Of a stretch of DNA of 6,918 nt, positions 1 to 6,918 are shown in pieces. The notes beneath the pieces are model-generated. The model ran no database searches, had not been told where the DNA came from, and was given only the letters and a program-made list of their open reading frames with translations. The translations under genes were made by a program, and so were the position numbers. The stretch spans positions 1 through 6,918 of the forward strand of contig JAAYYM010000045.1 of NCBI GenBank assembly GCA_012515365.1. The letters run 5' to 3'. The DNA comes from Clostridia bacterium (GTDB lineage Bacteria > Bacillota_A > Clostridia > Lachnospirales > Lachnospiraceae). Each line of letters opens with the position of its first letter. Position 1 is the first letter of the stretch.

Positions 1-2209
1 TATATCCACCAATCAGAGAATAGTAGCTGAGTTGCTCTAATGTTTTTAAAGCATAGGATGGATCAGAAATTGCCATTTTGTTATTACCAGAAGAAGCACA
101 AATAGCGGCAAGATTTTGCGTAAGATATCCTTTGGTAATGCTATTATCTCCGTAGATTTTTTTAACGAGACCGATACAGTTGGAATAGATCTGGATCGCA
201 TCGCTTATTTTACCACTTTCGTACAAAAGCTTTGCATAGGATGTCAGGGTAAAGATTCCAGCAGTTGAGTATTGCATTTGTGTATTCGATAGAACTCCAG
301 CAGCCTTTTTTGTATAGTCCAGAGCTTTTTCTTGCTTTCCAAGTAGAGCGAGATACCTTCCTGCATCCAGATACATACTGGAAAGATTCAGTATCTGCGA
401 GGTTCCATATTTGGTAGCAAGAAAGATTGCCTTCTCTTCTAATTCCAGAGCCTGAATAAAATTTTGATGAATTTTAGCTGCTTTCACTGCCTGAAAGTGA
501 AGGAGCATGGCTGAGTTTTCGGTTGAAATATTACGATAATGCTGACAGATATCATTACACTCATTTAATAGTTTTTCAAAAGAGCGGAATTGCTGGTACT
601 GACTGGTTCGTTCTAAGGCAGCAAAGACGATTCGCTTCCAAATATCTTCATTATCTTTTTTAACAAAGCGTAGGGTGGTATCTACCATATCCAGTGCGAA
701 AACATGATAGCTACTTACCTCATTCACACAAGTGGATCTTAGATGTTCGAATAAGTGTGGGCAGTCATTTAATGACAAGGATTTTCGTGCATTAATTATT
801 TTCCGTATATAGGGATGTAGTTGAATCTGGTTATGTTCGATTGTCAAAAATCCCAGTTCCAACAATTCATTTACTTCATTTACACAAGTACCATACCACT
901 GATACAGTAATTTGATAGGAATACCTGTCTCAGGTGCTAGAGCAATGACAGCTAATACTTTCTGCTGATTGTGTTCTAGTTCCTGCATATCCAATAACTT
1001 TTCCATGTGGTTTTGGTATCGTCTCTTTTCAGTAGTGTTGTCTTTGGTTATTGAGATTTTGATATCATCCGAAGGAAGAAGGATATTTTCTTTTAACGCT
1101 TCAAATAATTTGGCAGGTGTTATGGCTGTATATGAGAGTAATCTTGCAACCAGTTCTACCGCCATTGTGTGATAGTCTAAAAATTCCAGAATGAGATCCA
1201 GTTCTTCCAGAGAATAATCAGTAGAAGTTCCCAAGTTGCTTTGCAATACCTGCTCTGCCTGTTTCTTGTCAGCAGTAATTGTCAATGTTTCATAAGATGA
1301 AAATAGATTTCTTGTGGTAAAGATAACCCTACATTTTAAATCACAAAATTGAGAGAGAAGACTTTCTGTGGAAGCTGTTGTGTCAAAGTTATCAATTACA
1401 AGCAGGGTATCTTCTTTTAAGGATTTTAGAAAGCGAAAATGCTTCCGGAATCGTTCTTTTTCTGTTAATCCATCCGTATCATCCACAAAATCCAAATCAG
1501 CTACCATTTCATAGAGACTACCTGAATAATCAAGGAGCAAGATGTTGGTATAGTCTTTTCGGTGAAGCTTAATATATCGTTTAATAAGTTCGCTTTTTCC
1601 AATGCCAGCTACCCCTTGTATAAAAAGTGTTTGATGTTCTTCTAGTAATTCATGTACTTCTGCTAATTCTTTTTCCCTGCCTACAAAGGTTTTAATTGGT
1701 TTTGGTAGAAGGGTAGTCAGTATAATATCATCAATTAACGGGGATGTGCCACCAGAAGCTTTTGCATCAAATTTGACAAAAGATCTGGACATACCAAACA
1801 AAAGAACTTCAGCGATAAAACATGCATATGCGTCACTTGATGATTCTGCATAAAATGAAAGTAGTCGTTCTTTTTCAAAATCGGATATGGAAGTATCCGA
1901 TATCAGAAGTGTTTTAATATCATTAGCCGCATTGGCATAATCACTCAGATAAGGAAAAAGTTCCTTTTCCATATCCTGATACATAGCTTCCTTGCGGGAA
2001 TCATCCACATAATAATTAACGATTCTAGGGCTGACCTTCGCCTGCCCTTTGATCCATTTGCAGACTAATCCGTTGTCATACATAAAATCCTCGGTATCAT
2101 TGGAAAAGCTGGCAAAAATCATATACACATAATCTATTTGTGATGTATCCGCTTCTTTCAAATAGTGGAATAAAATTGCAGATACAGAATGAAAATCAAC
2201 TCGGTTCAA
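1..2209 (-). CDS. STAND-type NTPase with TPR array (partial, 3' end beyond window)
   Basis: I translated this frame by hand: it is open for 736 codons from a TTG start (2209-2207) to the window edge with no frameshift. The TTG is supported by AAGGAGA (2223-2217) seven bases upstream and by an in-frame TAA just before it; the nearest ATG in frame is residue 29. Residues 1-155 form an unrecognised, mostly helical N-terminal domain. A GREKEL motif follows at about 177-182, then Walker A GVAGIGKSE (199-207), Walker B TLLVIDNFD (268-276), an FTTRN sensor-like motif (297-301), HTMAVELVAR (347-356) in the place of the GLPLA motif, and a winged-helix-like HPYIR near 466-470. From about residue 520 the protein is helical with TPR-like repeats spaced about 41 residues (clearest at 657-736). 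STAND proteins are signal-sensing switches that oligomerise, and many act in phage defence or regulation. A defence role here is inference. The effector would be the N-terminal domain or a domain beyond the window. Confidence 0.85.
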   Translation of the reverse strand, partial: MNRVDFHSVSAILFHYLKEADTSQIDYVYMIFASFSNDTEDFMYDNGLVCKWIKGQAKVSPRIVNYYVDDSRKEAMYQDMEKELFPYLSDYANAANDIKTLLISDTSISDFEKERLLSFYAESSSDAYACFIAEVLLFGMSRSFVKFDAKASGGTSPLIDDIILTTLLPKPIKTFVGREKELAEVHELLEEHQTLFIQGVAGIGKSELIKRYIKLHRKDYTNILLLDYSGSLYEMVADLDFVDDTDGLTEKERFRKHFRFLKSLKEDTLLVIDNFDTTASTESLLSQFCDLKCRVIFTTRNLFSSYETLTITADKKQAEQVLQSNLGTSTDYSLEELDLILEFLDYHTMAVELVARLLSYTAITPAKLFEALKENILLPSDDIKISITKDNTTEKRRYQNHMEKLLDMQELEHNQQKVLAVIALAPETGIPIKLLYQWYGTCVNEVNELLELGFLTIEHNQIQLHPYIRKIINARKSLSLNDCPHLFEHLRSTCVNEVSSYHVFALDMVDTTLRFVKKDNEDIWKRIVFAALERTSQYQQFRSFEKLLNECNDICQHYRNISTENSAMLLHFQAVKAAKIHQNFIQALELEEKAIFLATKYGTSQILNLSSMYLDAGRYLALLGKQEKALDYTKKAAGVLSNTQMQYSTAGIFTLTSYAKLLYESGKISDAIQIYSNCIGLVKKIYGDNSITKGYLTQNLAAICASSGNNKMAISDPSYALKTLEQLSYYSLIGGY

Positions 2210-2807: not shown

Positions 2808-3335
2808 ATGATTATATATTGCTCAAAGGCACTACAGACCGCATTAAAACTAAGCAAGGCAGATTTTGCGACACCAGAACAGTTAGAAAAAGAGGACAAT
2901 CCATTTTATGCATGGCATGGACATGTTGCAAAGGTGGATGGACGAAACACTATAATCCTAATGAATGATAAAACTATGTACAGCATGCTCTTTAGAAATA
3001 AACTGCCAAGAAATAAAGACAAGTTTGCAGAGGTTGTGATGGAAGCACTTCCATACACTTTCGAGGTAGGCAATATTAACACGGAAGAAATATCCACTTA
3101 TATGAGCAGTGTGGATAGTATTATATTCGCTGAGAAGGCGGATCGACAAATTACTGGAAATATCACTCGTATGATTTTAGATATGGGTTATCGTTGGGAG
3201 TATGCGTGGAGAGAAGACGAGACAATTCAGGCATATGAGGCATACGCACAAAATCGTCTTCTAAGAAAAATTGGGAAAGACTACATTATTCCCTTTGAAG
3301 AAATGTTAAAAGCCTTATGTGGAATTCACGAATAA
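2808..3335 (+). CDS. DUF6933-like domain protein (175 aa)
   Basis: The start MIIYCSKALQTALKL, the block NPFYAWHGHVAKVDGRNTII, and LMNDKTMYSMLF are the pattern I remember for DUF6933 proteins, which are small, cytosolic and of unknown function. Residues about 1-115 make up that domain. The rest (about 116-175, with ITRMILDMGYRWEYAWR) is a helical tail I do not recognise. There is no signal peptide or membrane segment. AGGGAGG (2791-2797) lies ten bases before the ATG. The stop is 21 bases before the recombinase start, and no promoter or terminator separates them, so the two genes are probably co-transcribed. The family name is recalled from memory and needs a profile search. The biochemical role is unknown, and the link with the recombinase is positional only. 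Confidence 0.75.
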   Translation: MIIYCSKALQTALKLSKADFATPEQLEKEDNPFYAWHGHVAKVDGRNTIILMNDKTMYSMLFRNKLPRNKDKFAEVVMEALPYTFEVGNINTEEISTYMSSVDSIIFAEKADRQITGNITRMILDMGYRWEYAWREDETIQAYEAYAQNRLLRKIGKDYIIPFEEMLKALCGIHE

Positions 3336-3356
3336 GAATGTGGAGGAGGAGTGCCG

Positions 3357-5030
3357 ATGAAGAAAAAACTTAAATGCTACATTTATACCAGAGTATCCAC
3401 TTCCATGCAGGTGGAAGGCTACAGTCTGGATGCGCAAAAGGATAAACTAAAAAAATATGCAGATTATCAAGAAATGGTGATTGCTGGTGAATATTCTGAT
3501 GAAGGCAAATCTGGTAAAAGTGTAGAAGGAAGACCAGAGTTTCAACAGATGCTTTGTGATATTGAAAGTGGTAAGGATAAGGTAGACTTTGTACTTGTCT
3601 TTAAGTTGTCCCGATTTGGAAGAAATGCGGCGGATGTTTTAAGCTCCTTACAGAGAATGCAGGATTTTGGTGCGAATCTTATCTGTGTAGAAGATGGAAT
3701 AGATAGCTCAAAGGACGCAGGTAAATTAATGATTTCCGTATTGTCAGCGGTAGCTGAAATTGAACGTGAGAATATTCTTGTGCAGACCATGGAAGGTCGT
3801 AGGCAGAAAGCAAGAGAAGGAAAATGGAACGGTGGATTTGCTCCATATGGGTATAAACTGGTAGATGGAGAATTACAGATTGCAGAAGATGAAGCACCTA
3901 TTATCCGTCTGATCTATGATAAATTTGTTAATACAACCATGGGGATTGGAGCAATTGCTGTATTCCTTAATCAGAATGGCTACCGAAAAAAAATCAGACA
4001 GAACAATACAATGGAGACTTTTTCATCTTCTTTTATCAAAGGAGTATTGGACAATCCAATCTATTGTGGAAAACTAGCCTTTGGCAGACGTAAGAATGAG
4101 AAAATTGCAGGAACCCGAAATGAATATCATGTGGTAAAGCAGGATTCTTATTTGATTAGCGATGGAATTCATGATGAAATTATTTCAGAGGAAAACTGGA
4201 ATTTGGCACAGAAAAAGCGTCAGGAAACTGGAGTGGGCAATGAAAAGGTTCATAGTCTTGAACACGAGCATATTTTATCTGGTATTATAAAATGTCCAAT
4301 CTGTGGAAGTGGTATGTATGGAAATGTCAATCGTAAAAAACGTAAGGATGGAACCTTATACAAAGATTACTTTTACTATGCTTGTAAACATAGAACCTTC
4401 ATTGATGGACATCATTGCACTTACAAAAAGCAATGGAATGAAGATAAGGTAAATGATGCGGTTGCTGAGATTATTGGAAAACTGGTAAATAATCCAAAGT
4501 TCGAGAATGAAATCAGGACGAAAATAGGAAATAGTCTAGATACAAAAGATTTGGAAAAAGAACATACGAACTTGAAAGAGCAGCTAAAACAGTTACAAGG
4601 TGCAAAGAATAAGCTGGCAACCCAGATGGATCATTTATCGGTAGCAGACAAGCATTATGATAAAAAATATCGGGATATGCAGGAACGCATGGATGGATTG
4701 TACGATGAAATGGATGCATTAGAATTGTCTATTGAAGAAATTGAAAGTCGTTTATTTAACATAAAACAGCAGAAAATTTCTGGCGATAACGTCTATCAAT
4801 TCCTTCTTTATTTTGATAAACTGTATGATAAGATGACTGATGGAGAGAAAAAAGAATTTGTAAAGAGCTTTGTAGAGGAAGTGCATCTTTATGATAAAGA
4901 GCAGGAAGATGGCAGATTCTTAAAGCATATCAAGTTCAAATTCCCTGTATTTTTCAATGGAGCAGAGACACAGGAACTTGATTGGGACAATGAAAGTACC
5001 GTTGAGACGGTTGTATTGATTCAAGGATAA
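3357..5030 (+). CDS. Large serine recombinase (site-specific integrase)
   Basis: This 557-aa protein catalyses strand exchange between short att sites through a 5'-phosphoserine intermediate. The N-terminal resolvase domain shows YTRVSTSMQ with nucleophile Ser14 and catalytic Arg12, then SRFGRN (85-90) and AEIERENI (about 133-140). The 'Recombinase' DNA-binding domain follows (about 160-290, beginning near GGFAPYGYKL). A zinc ribbon has Cys313, Cys316, Cys343 and Cys354, and a coiled coil (about 400-470) begins LEKEHTNLKEQLKQLQ. Length and domain order are complete for the family. I chose ATG 3357, seven bases after GGAGGAGG (3342-3349); the in-frame GTG at 3351 is one base from it and too close. 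It is probably in one operon with the DUF6933-like gene. The C-terminus ends STVETVVLIQG, which echoes the rlmD-like tail at 6313-6378 and may mark an att-related sequence. No clear terminator follows it. Confidence 0.95.
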   Translation: MKKKLKCYIYTRVSTSMQVEGYSLDAQKDKLKKYADYQEMVIAGEYSDEGKSGKSVEGRPEFQQMLCDIESGKDKVDFVLVFKLSRFGRNAADVLSSLQRMQDFGANLICVEDGIDSSKDAGKLMISVLSAVAEIERENILVQTMEGRRQKAREGKWNGGFAPYGYKLVDGELQIAEDEAPIIRLIYDKFVNTTMGIGAIAVFLNQNGYRKKIRQNNTMETFSSSFIKGVLDNPIYCGKLAFGRRKNEKIAGTRNEYHVVKQDSYLISDGIHDEIISEENWNLAQKKRQETGVGNEKVHSLEHEHILSGIIKCPICGSGMYGNVNRKKRKDGTLYKDYFYYACKHRTFIDGHHCTYKKQWNEDKVNDAVAEIIGKLVNNPKFENEIRTKIGNSLDTKDLEKEHTNLKEQLKQLQGAKNKLATQMDHLSVADKHYDKKYRDMQERMDGLYDEMDALELSIEEIESRLFNIKQQKISGDNVYQFLLYFDKLYDKMTDGEKKEFVKSFVEEVHLYDKEQEDGRFLKHIKFKFPVFFNGAETQELDWDNESTVETVVLIQG

Positions 5031-5153
5031 AAAAATAAAGGGCTGAATATGCCCATAAATCAGGAACTTTTAGACTGGAAGGCGGCATTAAAGAATTCAT
5101 TTTAGGTATAAATTTTGGTAAGCAGAATATAATAAAAGAGCTGTAAATATTAC
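5031..5153. other. Spacer between the recombinase and the AbiF RNA promoter
   Basis: I see no gene here. A small hairpin GGGC (5040-5043) / GCCC (5051-5054) follows the recombinase stop but has a four-base stem and no U-run, so it is not called a terminator. Some transcription from the recombinase operon may therefore enter the downstream RNA. Confidence 0.4.
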
Positions 5154-5182
5154 TTGACAGAAAGTAGTTAGTCGAGTACGAT
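5154..5182 (+). promoter_or_regulatory. Promoter of the structured RNA and AbiF-type gene
   Basis: A perfect TTGACA (5154-5159) is followed after 17 bases by TACGAT (5177-5182). GATAAT (5180-5185) is an alternative -10 at a 20-base spacing. Either would start transcription near 5189-5192, just before the GC-rich RNA. It is the only consensus -35 I noticed in the window, which suggests that the RNA is made at a high level. Confidence 0.6.
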
Positions 5183-5205
5183 AATTACAGTGATCGCGTT
5201 GCAGA

Positions 5206-5243
5206 AACCTGTGAGGCCTGCGACCGGGGGAGAACCTGCGGGG
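5206..5243 (+). repeat. Repeated AACCTGYGRGG motif in the structured RNA
   Basis: AACCTGTGAGG (5206-5216) and AACCTGCGGGG (5233-5243) are identical at nine of eleven positions, and both differences are transitions. Each can fold as CC, a short loop and GG, and each sits in the loop region of a separate hairpin. Two copies could be two recognition sites for one protein, but coincidence within a short GC-rich RNA remains possible. Confidence 0.5.
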
Positions 5244-5257
5244 GCTCCTCTTTTTTT
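5227..5257 (+). terminator. Intrinsic terminator between the RNA and the AbiF-type gene
   Basis: GGGGAG (5227-5232) and CTCCTC (5245-5250) pair with one G-U; an inner CC/GG pairing in the loop is possible. TTTTTTT follows at 5251-5257. The gene's ribosome site begins only 13 bases after the T-run. The protein can therefore be made only by read-through, or by transcripts that resist the hairpin, which would keep RNA in excess over mRNA. Confidence 0.65.
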
Positions 5258-5282
5258 ATTCTATGAACTGGGGGGATAGGAT

Positions 5283-6224
5283 ATGCAAAAGATTTTTCTG
5301 GATTATGACCAGCAGATAGAAAAGCTGGCAAAGGAAAAGAACCTTATTATCAAGGATAAAGCATATGCGAAAGAGATTCTGAAGCAGACAAGTTATTATT
5401 CATTAATTGGTGGATACAAAGACATCTTTAAGAACCCCACAACAAAAAAATATAATGATGGAACAAATTTCGAGGATATAGTAGAGTTATACTACTTTGA
5501 TGAGCAACTTCGTCAGATTTTTCTAAAGTATTTGATTAAAGTAGAAAATGAAATTAAATCACTAGTCTCTTACTATTTCACAGAGAAGAATGGAGAAGGG
5601 CAACAGGCGTATCTTGATGTTCATAATTATAATTACTTTGGGAAAAAGAATGTTCGAGATATTGATTACCTCGTAAGAGTTTTAAAAAACTATGTAGAGA
5701 AACCTACAGATTATCATTACATTAATCACGCACAAAAAAAATATCAAAATGTTCCACTATGGGTACTAACTAATGCACTTACCTTTGGAAATATATCAAA
5801 AATGTATATGCTATTACCACAGGATATTCAAATTAAGGTAAGTCAAAATTATCCGTATATCAATGAGCGACAGTTGGTACAGATACTGACAGTACTTGTA
5901 AAATATCGCAATGTCTGTGCCCATGGAGAGCGACTATTTACATATAGGACAACAGATAGCATTTCGAATTTACCAATTCATAAGAAAATGAATATTCCTA
6001 AAAAGGGACAGCAATACATCTATGGAAAAAATGATTTGTTTGCGGTTGCTGTCACGTTGCGATATTTGTTAAATAGTAAGTGGTATAGTGAATTTAAAAA
6101 AGAATTAGCTGCATTAATTCACAAATATCTGAAAAGTCACGATAGTATTTCAGAGGAAGAATTGTTAGAAAAAATGGGATTCCCTATAAATTGGAAATAC
6201 ATAACGAGATATCGTAAGTGTTAA
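5283..6224 (+). CDS. Abi_2/AbiF-family HEPN protein, candidate abortive-infection ribonuclease
   Basis: This 313-aa protein has the landmarks I know for Abi_2 (AbiD/AbiF) proteins: an N-terminal QIEKLAKEKNLIIKD and SYYSLIGGYKDIF (37-49), FDEQLRQIFLKYLIKVENEIKSL spread over 72-94, PLWVLTNALTFGNISKMY spread over 158-175, and KYRNVCAHGERL (207-218). The last holds an R-x4-H signature, Arg209 to His214, typical of HEPN ribonucleases. There is no signal peptide or membrane segment, so it should act in the cytosol on RNA. In AbiF systems the protein is kept silent and, on phage infection, damages RNA to stop growth; activity here is inferred from the family. A G-rich Shine-Dalgarno (5270-5275) lies seven bases before the ATG. 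Length is normal for the family and the motif is intact, so the gene looks functional. It follows a structured RNA and terminator under one promoter. A single R-x4-H motif suggests activity as a dimer, unlike two-motif Cas13. Confidence 0.9.
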   Translation: MQKIFLDYDQQIEKLAKEKNLIIKDKAYAKEILKQTSYYSLIGGYKDIFKNPTTKKYNDGTNFEDIVELYYFDEQLRQIFLKYLIKVENEIKSLVSYYFTEKNGEGQQAYLDVHNYNYFGKKNVRDIDYLVRVLKNYVEKPTDYHYINHAQKKYQNVPLWVLTNALTFGNISKMYMLLPQDIQIKVSQNYPYINERQLVQILTVLVKYRNVCAHGERLFTYRTTDSISNLPIHKKMNIPKKGQQYIYGKNDLFAVAVTLRYLLNSKWYSEFKKELAALIHKYLKSHDSISEEELLEKMGFPINWKYITRYRKC

Positions 6225-6238
6225 AATAATCAAAAAAT

Positions 6239-6264
6239 AAGATACTCTGAAAAGGGTATCTTTT
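6239..6264 (+). terminator. Terminator of the AbiF-type gene
   Basis: AAGATACTC (6239-6247) pairs with GGGTATCTT (6254-6262) through nine pairs, one T-G, with a six-base TGAAAA loop, and runs into TTTTCTGTT. The stem begins 14 bases after the stop codon. An A-run on the left side means it could also work for transcripts coming from the right. Confidence 0.75.
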
Positions 6265-6474
6265 CTGTTAGTAAAATAAGAATTGGAAGTGCTGCTAGTA
6301 CATGGCATCTAAATACCCCAATCAAGACATATTGAGACGGTAGTTCTTTTGTCTAGGGGTTCAGAAGTAAAAGCTTAAAAAGAGATTTCCGAGATTGTAT
6401 CACTTTTTTTAAATTTTCTTCTCTAGCTGATTAGCAATTGCATGAAAAAGTAAAATATGGAGAGGAATGTGAAA
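6265..6474. other. Intergenic region between the AbiF terminator and the lipoprotein gene
   Basis: Apart from the rlmD-like tail, this AT-rich stretch holds a run of seven T near 6404-6410 without a convincing stem before it. For the lipoprotein gene, TAAAAT (6451-6456) could be a -10, but its best-spaced -35 (TGATTA, 6428) is poor, so no promoter is called. Confidence 0.4.
6313..6378 (+). pseudogene. Fragment like the 3' tail of rlmD/rumA (likely att junction)
   Basis: The frame reads IPQSRHIETVVLLSRGSEVK, then Ala and stop, preceded in frame by TAA (6310-6312) and lacking a start or ribosome site. Firmicute RlmD (23S rRNA m5U1939 methyltransferase) proteins end in a closely similar way (…FPQTxHVETVVLLSR), as I remember them. 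The 3' end of rlmD/rumA is a known insertion hotspot for integrative elements. The natural reading is the displaced original tail of a gene whose body lies beyond the left edge, with the element ending here. The alternative is that this is only a short chance frame; it is 21 codons. The block TTGAGACGGT (6332-6341) also occurs in the last codons of the recombinase in the same reading frame. Confidence 0.45.
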
Positions 6475-6918
6475 ATGAAAAATATACACTTATTTTGCCT
6501 GGTGTTATTGTCAGGGTTAGTACTTATGGCAGCAGGATGTGGAAGCAAACCAGAGAAAGCAGCTCAGGATTTAGAAGAAAATGAGGATCTGAATGAAAAC
6601 AATGATGATGCTCAGGTTGAGGGAATTGCATCAGAGTATGGTTCACCAGAAGAGGAAGCCGAAGCAACAGGAAGAGATTTATTTTTTGTGCTCTATGATC
6701 GAATTGGAGCGCAGCGTGATTTAGATTTAGTACAGGATGCAAGAACATATAAATCCAAAGTTACAACAGCAGATACAGAATATGTTACGGTGAGTGATGC
6801 AAATTACATAAATACACTGGATTTAACTACAGTATCATATAACCCAACAGAACAACAGGACTGGCAATTTGACGGAACCAATGCAACCGGTAGAATTCAG
6901 ACTTATTCAGATGGAAAA
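6475..6918 (+). CDS. Lipoprotein, N-terminal part (partial)
   Basis: The frame is open for 148 codons from ATG 6475 to the window edge. GGAGAGG (6459-6465) is nine bases upstream. Residues 1-21 are a lipoprotein signal peptide: Lys2, a hydrophobic stretch (LFCLVLLSGLVLMAA) and Gly21, then Cys22, the residue that would be lipidated. The -3 Ala is less usual than Leu but acceptable. An acidic, disordered linker (about 30-60, rich in Glu, Asp, Asn) leads into a soluble extracellular region beginning near GRDLFFVLYDRIGAQRDLD. The protein would be anchored to the outer face of the cytoplasmic membrane. I do not recognise the mature domain, and most of it lies beyond the window. It follows the presumed att tail, so it may be ordinary chromosome flanking the element. 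Confidence 0.85.
   Translation, partial: MKNIHLFCLVLLSGLVLMAAGCGSKPEKAAQDLEENEDLNENNDDAQVEGIASEYGSPEEEAEATGRDLFFVLYDRIGAQRDLDLVQDARTYKSKVTTADTEYVTVSDANYINTLDLTTVSYNPTEQQDWQFDGTNATGRIQTYSDGK

Follow-up and report, generated by a model that had tools for sequence, protein, structure and literature searches.

A putative RNA-antitoxin/HEPN-toxin cassette of the Abi_2 superfamily with its own class of leader RNA

Introduction

Is the short structured RNA encoded upstream of a clostridial Abi_2 gene the partner of a HEPN ribonuclease and, if so, does it belong to the RNA class already described for such systems? This question is raised by positions 5154-6224 of the window (the whole 6,918-nt stretch of Clostridia bacterium DNA analysed here, contig JAAYYM010000045.1), where a promoter is followed by a predicted RNA of about 69 nt (comprising a 5' AGUGAUCG, a covarying hairpin and a terminator hairpin) and by an ORF encoding a 313-amino-acid Abi_2 HEPN protein.

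Two systems serve as references. In AbiFCd-RCd22 of C. difficile (phi027/phiC2), the account in PMC12373285 describes a toxic protein and an RNA that is active in cis and in trans and binds the protein directly, with R202/H207 being needed. Similarly to the window, this system comprises a SigA promoter, a short structured RNA, a terminator and an Abi_2 HEPN gene with an RNxCAH motif; RCd22 is described there as having two abiF motifs (RF03085), whereas the window RNA has no RF03085 match, and the window protein is 28.9% identical to the phiC2 homologue. In PbAbiF-AbiFr, according to PMC12737573, one RNA is bound per monomer and bulge bases inhibit the RNase. Its dimeric HEPN protein with an ncRNA partner (structure 8vz6) resembles the window system, and is the one structure that the fold of the window protein matches with confidence.

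Results and Discussion

Layout and genomic setting of the cassette

The combination of an RNA and a HEPN gene, noticed in a preliminary description of this DNA, was confirmed. The features are as follows.

5154-5182, + strand: sigma-70-type promoter (TTGACA at 5154-5159, 17-nt spacer, TACGAT at 5177-5182)
5189-5257, + strand: leader RNA of the R1 class, predicted length about 69 nt (R1 model match and conservation)
5189-5197, + strand: single-stranded conserved 5' strand AGUGAUCGC (identity 0.99 across 15 close loci, with 8 of its 9 columns unchanged)
5198-5224, + strand: hairpin 1, a 7-bp stem (5198-5204 pairing with 5218-5224) enclosing a 3-nt internal loop on the 5' side, two inner pairs, a 5-nt loop and 1 nt on the 3' side
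5227-5257, + strand: hairpin 2 (5227-5250) and T-run (5251-5257), terminator-like (fold; 40 of 40 leaders examined)
5270-5275, + strand: GGGGGG, a possible ribosome binding site 7 nt 5' of the ATG (reading of the sequence)
5283-6224, + strand: Abi_2 HEPN protein of 313 amino acids with R209-x4-H214 (PF07751, PADLOC AbiD, 8vz6 fold, motif)

The R1 model, built from 27 sequences including the window itself, matches the window at 5187-5227 (61.9 bits). With type III (RNA-protein) toxin-antitoxin systems the window shares the placement of an RNA gene and its terminator immediately 5' of the gene for the putative toxin, under one promoter. In these systems the antitoxin consists of tandem repeats, ToxI being an example, whereas R1 has a single match in the window.

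A protein scan of genome contigs gave 16 close loci (68-79% identity of the best segment), mostly from Lachnospiraceae by record titles. The DNA common to the window and these loci is confined to window positions 5109-6228, apart from one stretch, a 44-base match of locus L019 to window positions 3-46, which is itself an Abi_2-like piece. Because the shared DNA is cassette-sized, the RNA and the gene move as one cassette.

The neighbouring genes deserve mention. A STAND NTPase/TPR protein is encoded at 2-2209 on the - strand; its residues 1-714 match a 771-amino-acid relative at 90%, and its last 25 residues, at the window edge, resemble residues 21-45 of the window Abi_2 protein (60%), so that this gene seems to be fused to an Abi_2 piece just beyond the left end of the window. 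A 175-amino-acid DUF6933 protein (PF22016), encoded at 2808-3335 on the + strand, gave a match to PDC-S63 (E 3.8e-14), which is a candidate defence family, and a large serine recombinase (3351-5030) adjoins the cassette.

The Abi_2 HEPN protein

The protein matches Abi_2 (PF07751) over residues 31-219 with 159.4 bits (cut-off 25.6; E 1.5e-46), as well as AbiD of PADLOC (E 1.1e-61). Its HEPN RNase motif, R-x4-H, reads RNVCAH at residues 209-214, and R209, N210, C212, A213 and H214 are invariant in 30 of 30 aligned sequences. The AlphaFold2 model (pLDDT 93.3, pTM 0.90, from a 27-sequence alignment) found one PDB match at E <= 0.001, namely 8vz6, 'PbAbiF dimer bound to ncRNA' (E 9.4e-11; TM 0.75/0.79), to which it is 20% identical in the structural alignment. 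The same entry was top by sequence, with 39.3 bits for the single protein and E 6.5e-24 for the profile. The 313-residue Abi_2-like protein with an intact R209-x4-H214 of the preliminary description is thus upheld by family, fold and motif. It is worth noting that PbAbiF groups by score with the RF03085-type proteins, unlike the window protein (130.8 bits for the RF03085-type protein L146, 74.7 for L046 and 39.3 for the window protein).

A few genes of the clade that carries R1 (see below) hold internal stops, and at L016 (912-1300) an intact R1 RNA precedes an Abi_2 gene reduced to short pieces.

The leader is conserved and covaries as an RNA

The RNA is near-identical in all 15 close loci with upstream DNA (the sixteenth, L013, begins inside the gene). 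Averaged over these 15 loci, identity to the window amounts to 0.99 for AGUGAUCGC, 1.00 for hairpin 1 (where 26 of 27 columns do not vary) and 0.94 for hairpin 2, against 0.45 for the upstream DNA, 0.57 for the promoter spacer and 0.34 from the terminator to the ATG.

Diverged forms were taken from loci at about 41-61% protein identity, found in 392 genomes of the order and in two phage records. Across 27 such sequences, all cells of the 7-bp stem that have letters on both sides are paired, with two-sided changes at five of the seven pairs and with G-U as well as Watson-Crick pairs kept. The covariation score of the stem was reached by none of 500 shuffles and slid controls pair in 21-44% of cells, the 27 sequences being a biased sample chosen by likeness to the motif, for which kinship alone can beat such shuffles; evidence against kinship as the source of the signal comes from the slid controls and from the two-sided changes. 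AGUG is nearly invariant among 25 diverged sequences (the alignment including hairpin 2). Pairing of the 5' strand with the loop as a pseudoknot, with 74% of cells paired and a two-sided change at one of four pairs, was not supported.

Folding energy is unremarkable on its own (z -1.74 and -1.64, single-sequence fold) and hairpin 2 was not listed by a simple terminator scan of the window, so that the case for an RNA rests on conservation and covariation. By both, the window leader is a genuine RNA. The preliminary description had asked for covariation and conservation in homologous loci; both were found (two-sided changes at 5/7 stem pairs; 15/15 close loci). Its two-hairpin RNA with a terminator holds as well, since the hairpins at 5198-5224 and 5227-5250, with their seven T, are conserved and the first one covaries.

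The occurrence of the cassette in unrelated flanks, next door to a large serine recombinase (3351-5030), could also be read as the mark of a DNA feature of mobile units, i.e. a recombination or insertion site instead of a functional RNA. We consider this reading very improbable, because stem changes preserve G-U plus Watson-Crick pairs, the promoter spacing is fixed and some copies are placed in phage tRNA arrays (both described below).

Promoter and predicted RNA start

Taken alone, the promoter is at chance level, since the region 4800-6500 has four promoter-like sites as compared to 7.7 expected from shuffles. The TTGACA promoter of the preliminary description is nevertheless present (TTGACA/17/TACGAT), with a -35 box of 0.99 identity across the 15 close loci. 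In 40 of 40 R1-type leaders examined, a promoter scoring 9-12 of 12 ends 6 nt (34 leaders) or 7 nt (six leaders) 5' of the A in AGUG, as counted for the best-scoring site per leader, with no shuffle control and with L016, L032, L036 and L047 outside the set. Because this spacing is fixed, A5189 is the predicted first RNA base, in agreement with the start proposed earlier. Hairpin 2 and a T-run (or TTTCGTT) follow the promoter and AGUG in all 40 leaders examined, which share the order promoter-RNA-terminator-gene with a single promoter.

This order would also be expected if the leader acted only in cis, as an attenuator or a riboswitch-like 5' UTR that controls read-through, perhaps by sensing a phage factor, and did not bind the HEPN protein. 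Leader control of AbiD1 and RCd22-dependent termination are indeed described in PMC12373285. The lactococcal AbiD1 system, as presented there, resembles the window in combining an Abi_2 protein with a structured leader and with a short transcript that ends prematurely, and differs from it in that the reported control is translational and involves a phage protein. Against a purely cis-acting leader, the constrained and covarying part is hairpin 1 with the 5' strand, not the terminator; conserved copies occur without a downstream Abi_2 gene; and tRNA-linked phage copies have no T-run. We therefore hold such a leader to be improbable.

R1 differs from the abiF RNA and follows a clade of Abi_2 proteins

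The preliminary description had stated that the RNA would be a new class if it did not match the known AbiF motif. An Rfam search of the window gave no match at E <= 1, and RF03085 gave none in 5120-5300 at E <= 10. As a positive control, RF03085 matched phiC2 (L017) upstream of AbiF with 37.6 bits, and a covariance search did not find it in L001, L008, L016, L018 and L019. The best Rfam match in 5120-5300, sbrA, was rejected as the identity of the leader (20.9 bits against a cut-off of 45, with an alignment lying mostly in the terminator part). From this lack of an RF03085 match to the window leader it follows that, within the limits of Rfam 15 and of the open-access literature searched, R1 is a new RNA class. 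The preliminary reading of an AbiF-type RNA/HEPN system stands for the protein family, for the relationship to PbAbiF with its ncRNA and for a conserved RNA that tracks a protein clade; it does not extend to the abiF motif RF03085, which the leader lacks.

Similarly to R1, RF03085 is a small asymmetric hairpin between a promoter and an Abi_2 gene. The two differ in their conserved sequence and in the side of the asymmetry: in R1 the 5' strand of the hairpin contributes 3 unpaired nt and the 3' strand 1 nt, and R1 lacks the long 3'-side internal loop of RF03085 (CAAAUC in its model). RF03085 gave 20 hits in 16 of the 80 genomes searched (out of 84 with an Abi_2 relative), five genomes being over the cut-off, and none of these hits coincided with an R1 hit.

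A tree was built from the 104 Abi_2 proteins that have 270 or more amino acids (seven of 111 were shorter and left out). One of its clades (support 100/99) has 40 members, 38 of which have R1; of the 64 proteins outside this clade, none has it. The two exceptions within the clade are L036, which has its only R1 just downstream of the gene, and L155, which sits on a long branch (2.65). RF03085 was found for 14 tree proteins, all in another clade of 42, and needs five changes on the tree, four of its 20 hits being at places without a tree protein and L186 (a weak hit) being scored as none.

Hairpin architecture was counted post hoc, with a pattern that was set after viewing the sequences and that permitted a 4-nt loop to fit one group, and with 10 of 111 loci left ungrouped (L013, L016, L032, L036, L136, L140, L144, L155, L174, L179). 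Counted in this way, the R1-like pattern (7 bp, 3 nt, 2 bp, loop, 2 bp, 1 nt, 7 bp) occurs in 34 of 41 R1-clade leaders (0.2 expected), in 0 of 8 leaders of a mixed group and in 0 of 42 of the RF03085-side clade. An R1-like 5'-sided pattern is found at 10 of 10 loci of other early-branching groups (0.1 expected), which provide few independent sequences; in their leaders, the asymmetric hairpin is itself terminator-like, and the likeness was also seen by eye. The abiF-like 3'-sided pattern occurs in 19 of 42 leaders of the RF03085-side clade (1.0 expected), in 5 of 41 of the R1 clade (2.4 expected), in 1 of 10 early ones (0.5) and in 1 of 8 of the mixed group (0.0). The exact mirror pattern was seen as well, in 5 of 41 leaders of the R1 clade (against 0.1 expected), where it is perhaps hairpin 2, and in 1 of 10 of the early groups. 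These mirror and abiF-like cases outside the RF03085-side clade speak against a clean division. RNA architecture may follow a deep split of the Abi_2 protein family, which we offer as a lead only.

Rfam 15 gave only RF03085 here for AbiF-type systems, and R1 adds a second class with the opposite asymmetry and its own clade. The two provide a natural comparison for studying the silencing of a HEPN RNase by RNA, and the co-evolution of RNA and enzyme before guides.

Other Abi_2 groups have leaders with neither R1 nor RF03085, in which conserved, group-specific hairpins were seen by eye between the promoter and the gene (L133-L135, L046/L049/L050, L139/L141/L143, L147/L151/L177, L161/L156/L182/L185 and L154/L171/L173).

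Proposed mode of action

The cassette is a known kind of system, an Abi_2 HEPN protein with an RNA partner, endowed with a new RNA class, and we regard it as quite probable that it works as an RNA-antitoxin/HEPN-toxin pair of the Abi_2 (AbiD/F) superfamily. We infer that the window RNA inhibits the HEPN protein; most likely, it would limit expression by termination and neutralise the HEPN dimer by binding. First, the single promoter would produce a short RNA starting at A5189 and mostly ending at the hairpin 2 terminator. Second, judging from the layout, occasional read-through would generate the mRNA of the HEPN protein, as for RCd22/AbiF of C. difficile. Third, because of the analogy with PbAbiF-AbiFr and AbiFCd-RCd22, the short RNA is expected to bind the HEPN dimer through its conserved 5' strand and asymmetric hairpin 1, and to block the RNase site, the protein contacts probably being the AGUGAUCG strand and, on the 5' side of the hairpin, the 3-nt internal loop. 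Fourth, and this is the least certain step, a fall in RNA supply, e.g. when a phage halts host transcription, would leave the free protein to cut RNA and growth would stop; release upon phage infection is a guess. The binding mode may differ from that of PbAbiF, given that the protein is distant (39.3 versus 130.8 bits) and the RNAs differ. Part of the function of R1 may also lie elsewhere, since R1 occurs as well without an Abi_2 gene.

The tight linkage of RNA and protein, together with the proposal that HEPN/RNA systems are kin of the ancestors of Cas13 (as put forward in PMC12373285 and PMC12737573), would also suit an RNA that activates or directs the HEPN protein, as a Cas13-like cofactor or guide, rather than inhibiting it. 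The RNA has, however, no variable guide-like segment, its conserved part spanning almost the whole predicted transcript, and in the characterised relatives, as described in the same two sources, the RNA acts as an inhibitor. An activating or guiding RNA thus appears more improbable still than a purely cis-acting leader, and inhibition remains our preferred reading.

Lone R1 copies in phages

Two pattern scans of viral contigs found the R1 core in 19 contigs (16 plus three more), and PF07751 is present on seven of these records and absent from 12; the records may be fragmentary, a number of them measuring just 4-6 kb. A viral scan at the protein level found no relative. By blastn, INPHARED gave two records for the window RNA and none for the phage RNA.

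In six of the 12 Abi_2-less contigs, representing three lineages, R1 is located within or next to a tRNA array. Five of them, belonging to two lineages (L199/L212 and L206/L210/L211), have the RNA directly after the CCA of a tRNA-Met and before a tRNA-Arg; four of the five stretches have eight tRNAs and the fifth (L199), which is cut, has three. These five copies keep hairpin 2 and have no T-run, and L212 and L199 carry terminase and portal genes. Between the two lineages the RNA is identical at 58 of 63 positions, as compared to 48 of 82 columns for tRNA-Met (where the called end of one copy omits ACCA), 50 of 77 for tRNA-Thr and 59 of 82 for tRNA-Arg, yet tRNA-Asn is identical at 74 of 75. 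In the third lineage (L248), two bases separate the end of the R1 match from the tRNA-Asn that follows, leaving no room for a second hairpin. The pattern of a tRNA followed by CCA-AGTGA occurs in 38 viral contigs; because a search at E <= 1 of the 33 not already known brought just one match to R1 (16.5 bits, E 0.05), AGTGA after CCA is mostly due to chance.

Two further Abi_2-less copies, L196 (with terminase, portal and capsid genes) and L197 (with terminase and portal genes), belong to phage regions of genomes G765 and G065, respectively. PF07751 is absent genome-wide from G765, from G065 and from G113 (which holds the sibling copy L123), these genomes being 93-98% complete. Covariation was observed in the viral set of R1 sequences too. 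When the stems of lone copies were considered alone, 99.4% of stem cells were paired in 22 distinct rows, with two-sided changes at five of seven pairs and with none of 500 shuffles reaching the score, in an alignment fitted to the R1 model, which favours pairing, and from which the near-identical L210-L212, L193, L123 and L124 were omitted.

From these observations we propose that the lone phage R1 copies serve as an RNA-based counter-defence against Abi_2 HEPN toxins and are freed through tRNA processing, a proposal whose chances of being right or wrong we judge to be even. In the tRNA-linked copies, 3' processing of tRNA-Met would free the same 5' AGUG end as predicted for host promoters. 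Several points bear on this decoy function. First, there is a precedent in the pseudo-ToxI of phage phiTE, a phage-borne RNA antitoxin mimic (PMC3475682); it mimics the repeat antitoxin of ToxIN, as shown experimentally in that account, whereas R1 mimicry is proposed. Second, the RNA anti-CRISPRs (Racr) are likewise solitary phage copies of an RNA bound by a defence protein, their target being CRISPR-Cas in the description of PMC10651486, while the anti-defence role of R1 is a proposal. Third, cyanophage S-CREM1 carries an abiF-type RNA in a tRNA-rich genome, but of the RF03085 class (PMC9964418); the RNA is called likely functional during infection, with no mechanism stated in the passages concerned (PMC9964418; review PMC12197685). 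Fourth, against a decoy, the three INPHARED records with R1 (L018, L019 and L250) all carry Abi_2, and L204 and L205 adjoin a long phage ORF of the same kind, by eye, as in contigs with the full cassette, so that these two may simply have lost the Abi_2 gene. If the proposal is true, lone phage R1 would be the AbiF-type counterpart of pseudo-ToxI and of the RNA anti-CRISPRs. The lone copies make RNA-based counter-defence against AbiF-type systems directly testable.

Second and lone R1 copies in chromosomes

At E <= 0.01, 41 of the 392 genomes had R1 hits, 54 in all. Hand classification placed 28 directly before an Abi_2 gene (some of them broken), five before short remnants or split pieces, three as second or downstream copies and 14 alone within the 3-13 kb around, with one weak lone copy (G350); the other three, G009 (inside an ORF), G363 and G382 (both partial matches), were not counted. 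L123 and L124, among the 14 lone copies, are phage regions, and several chromosomal lone copies look like leftovers, which likewise speaks against a decoy. At the lone-copy locus L103, an Abi_2 of another kind lies about 1.6 kb upstream; an Abi_2 match on the opposite strand at L102 was weak (23% over 115 residues, E 4e-4) and was judged to be due to chance. Of 398 genomes sampled from the phylum, three had R1, and two of these belong to the family of the nearest genome; a blastn search for the window RNA in plasmids found none.

Second copies of R1 were observed downstream of Abi_2 genes at L019 (1321-1360), L127 (2141-2181), L126 (56-96) and L106 (3264-3303), and those of RF03085 at L176 (1639-1675) and L192 (1640-1676). 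Finally, at L105, L111 and L112 a lone R1 lies upstream of what appears by eye to be the same 185-amino-acid ORF, which lies 285-842 bases after the RNA and whose L112 copy matches Zeta_toxin (PF06414, E 8.5e-7).
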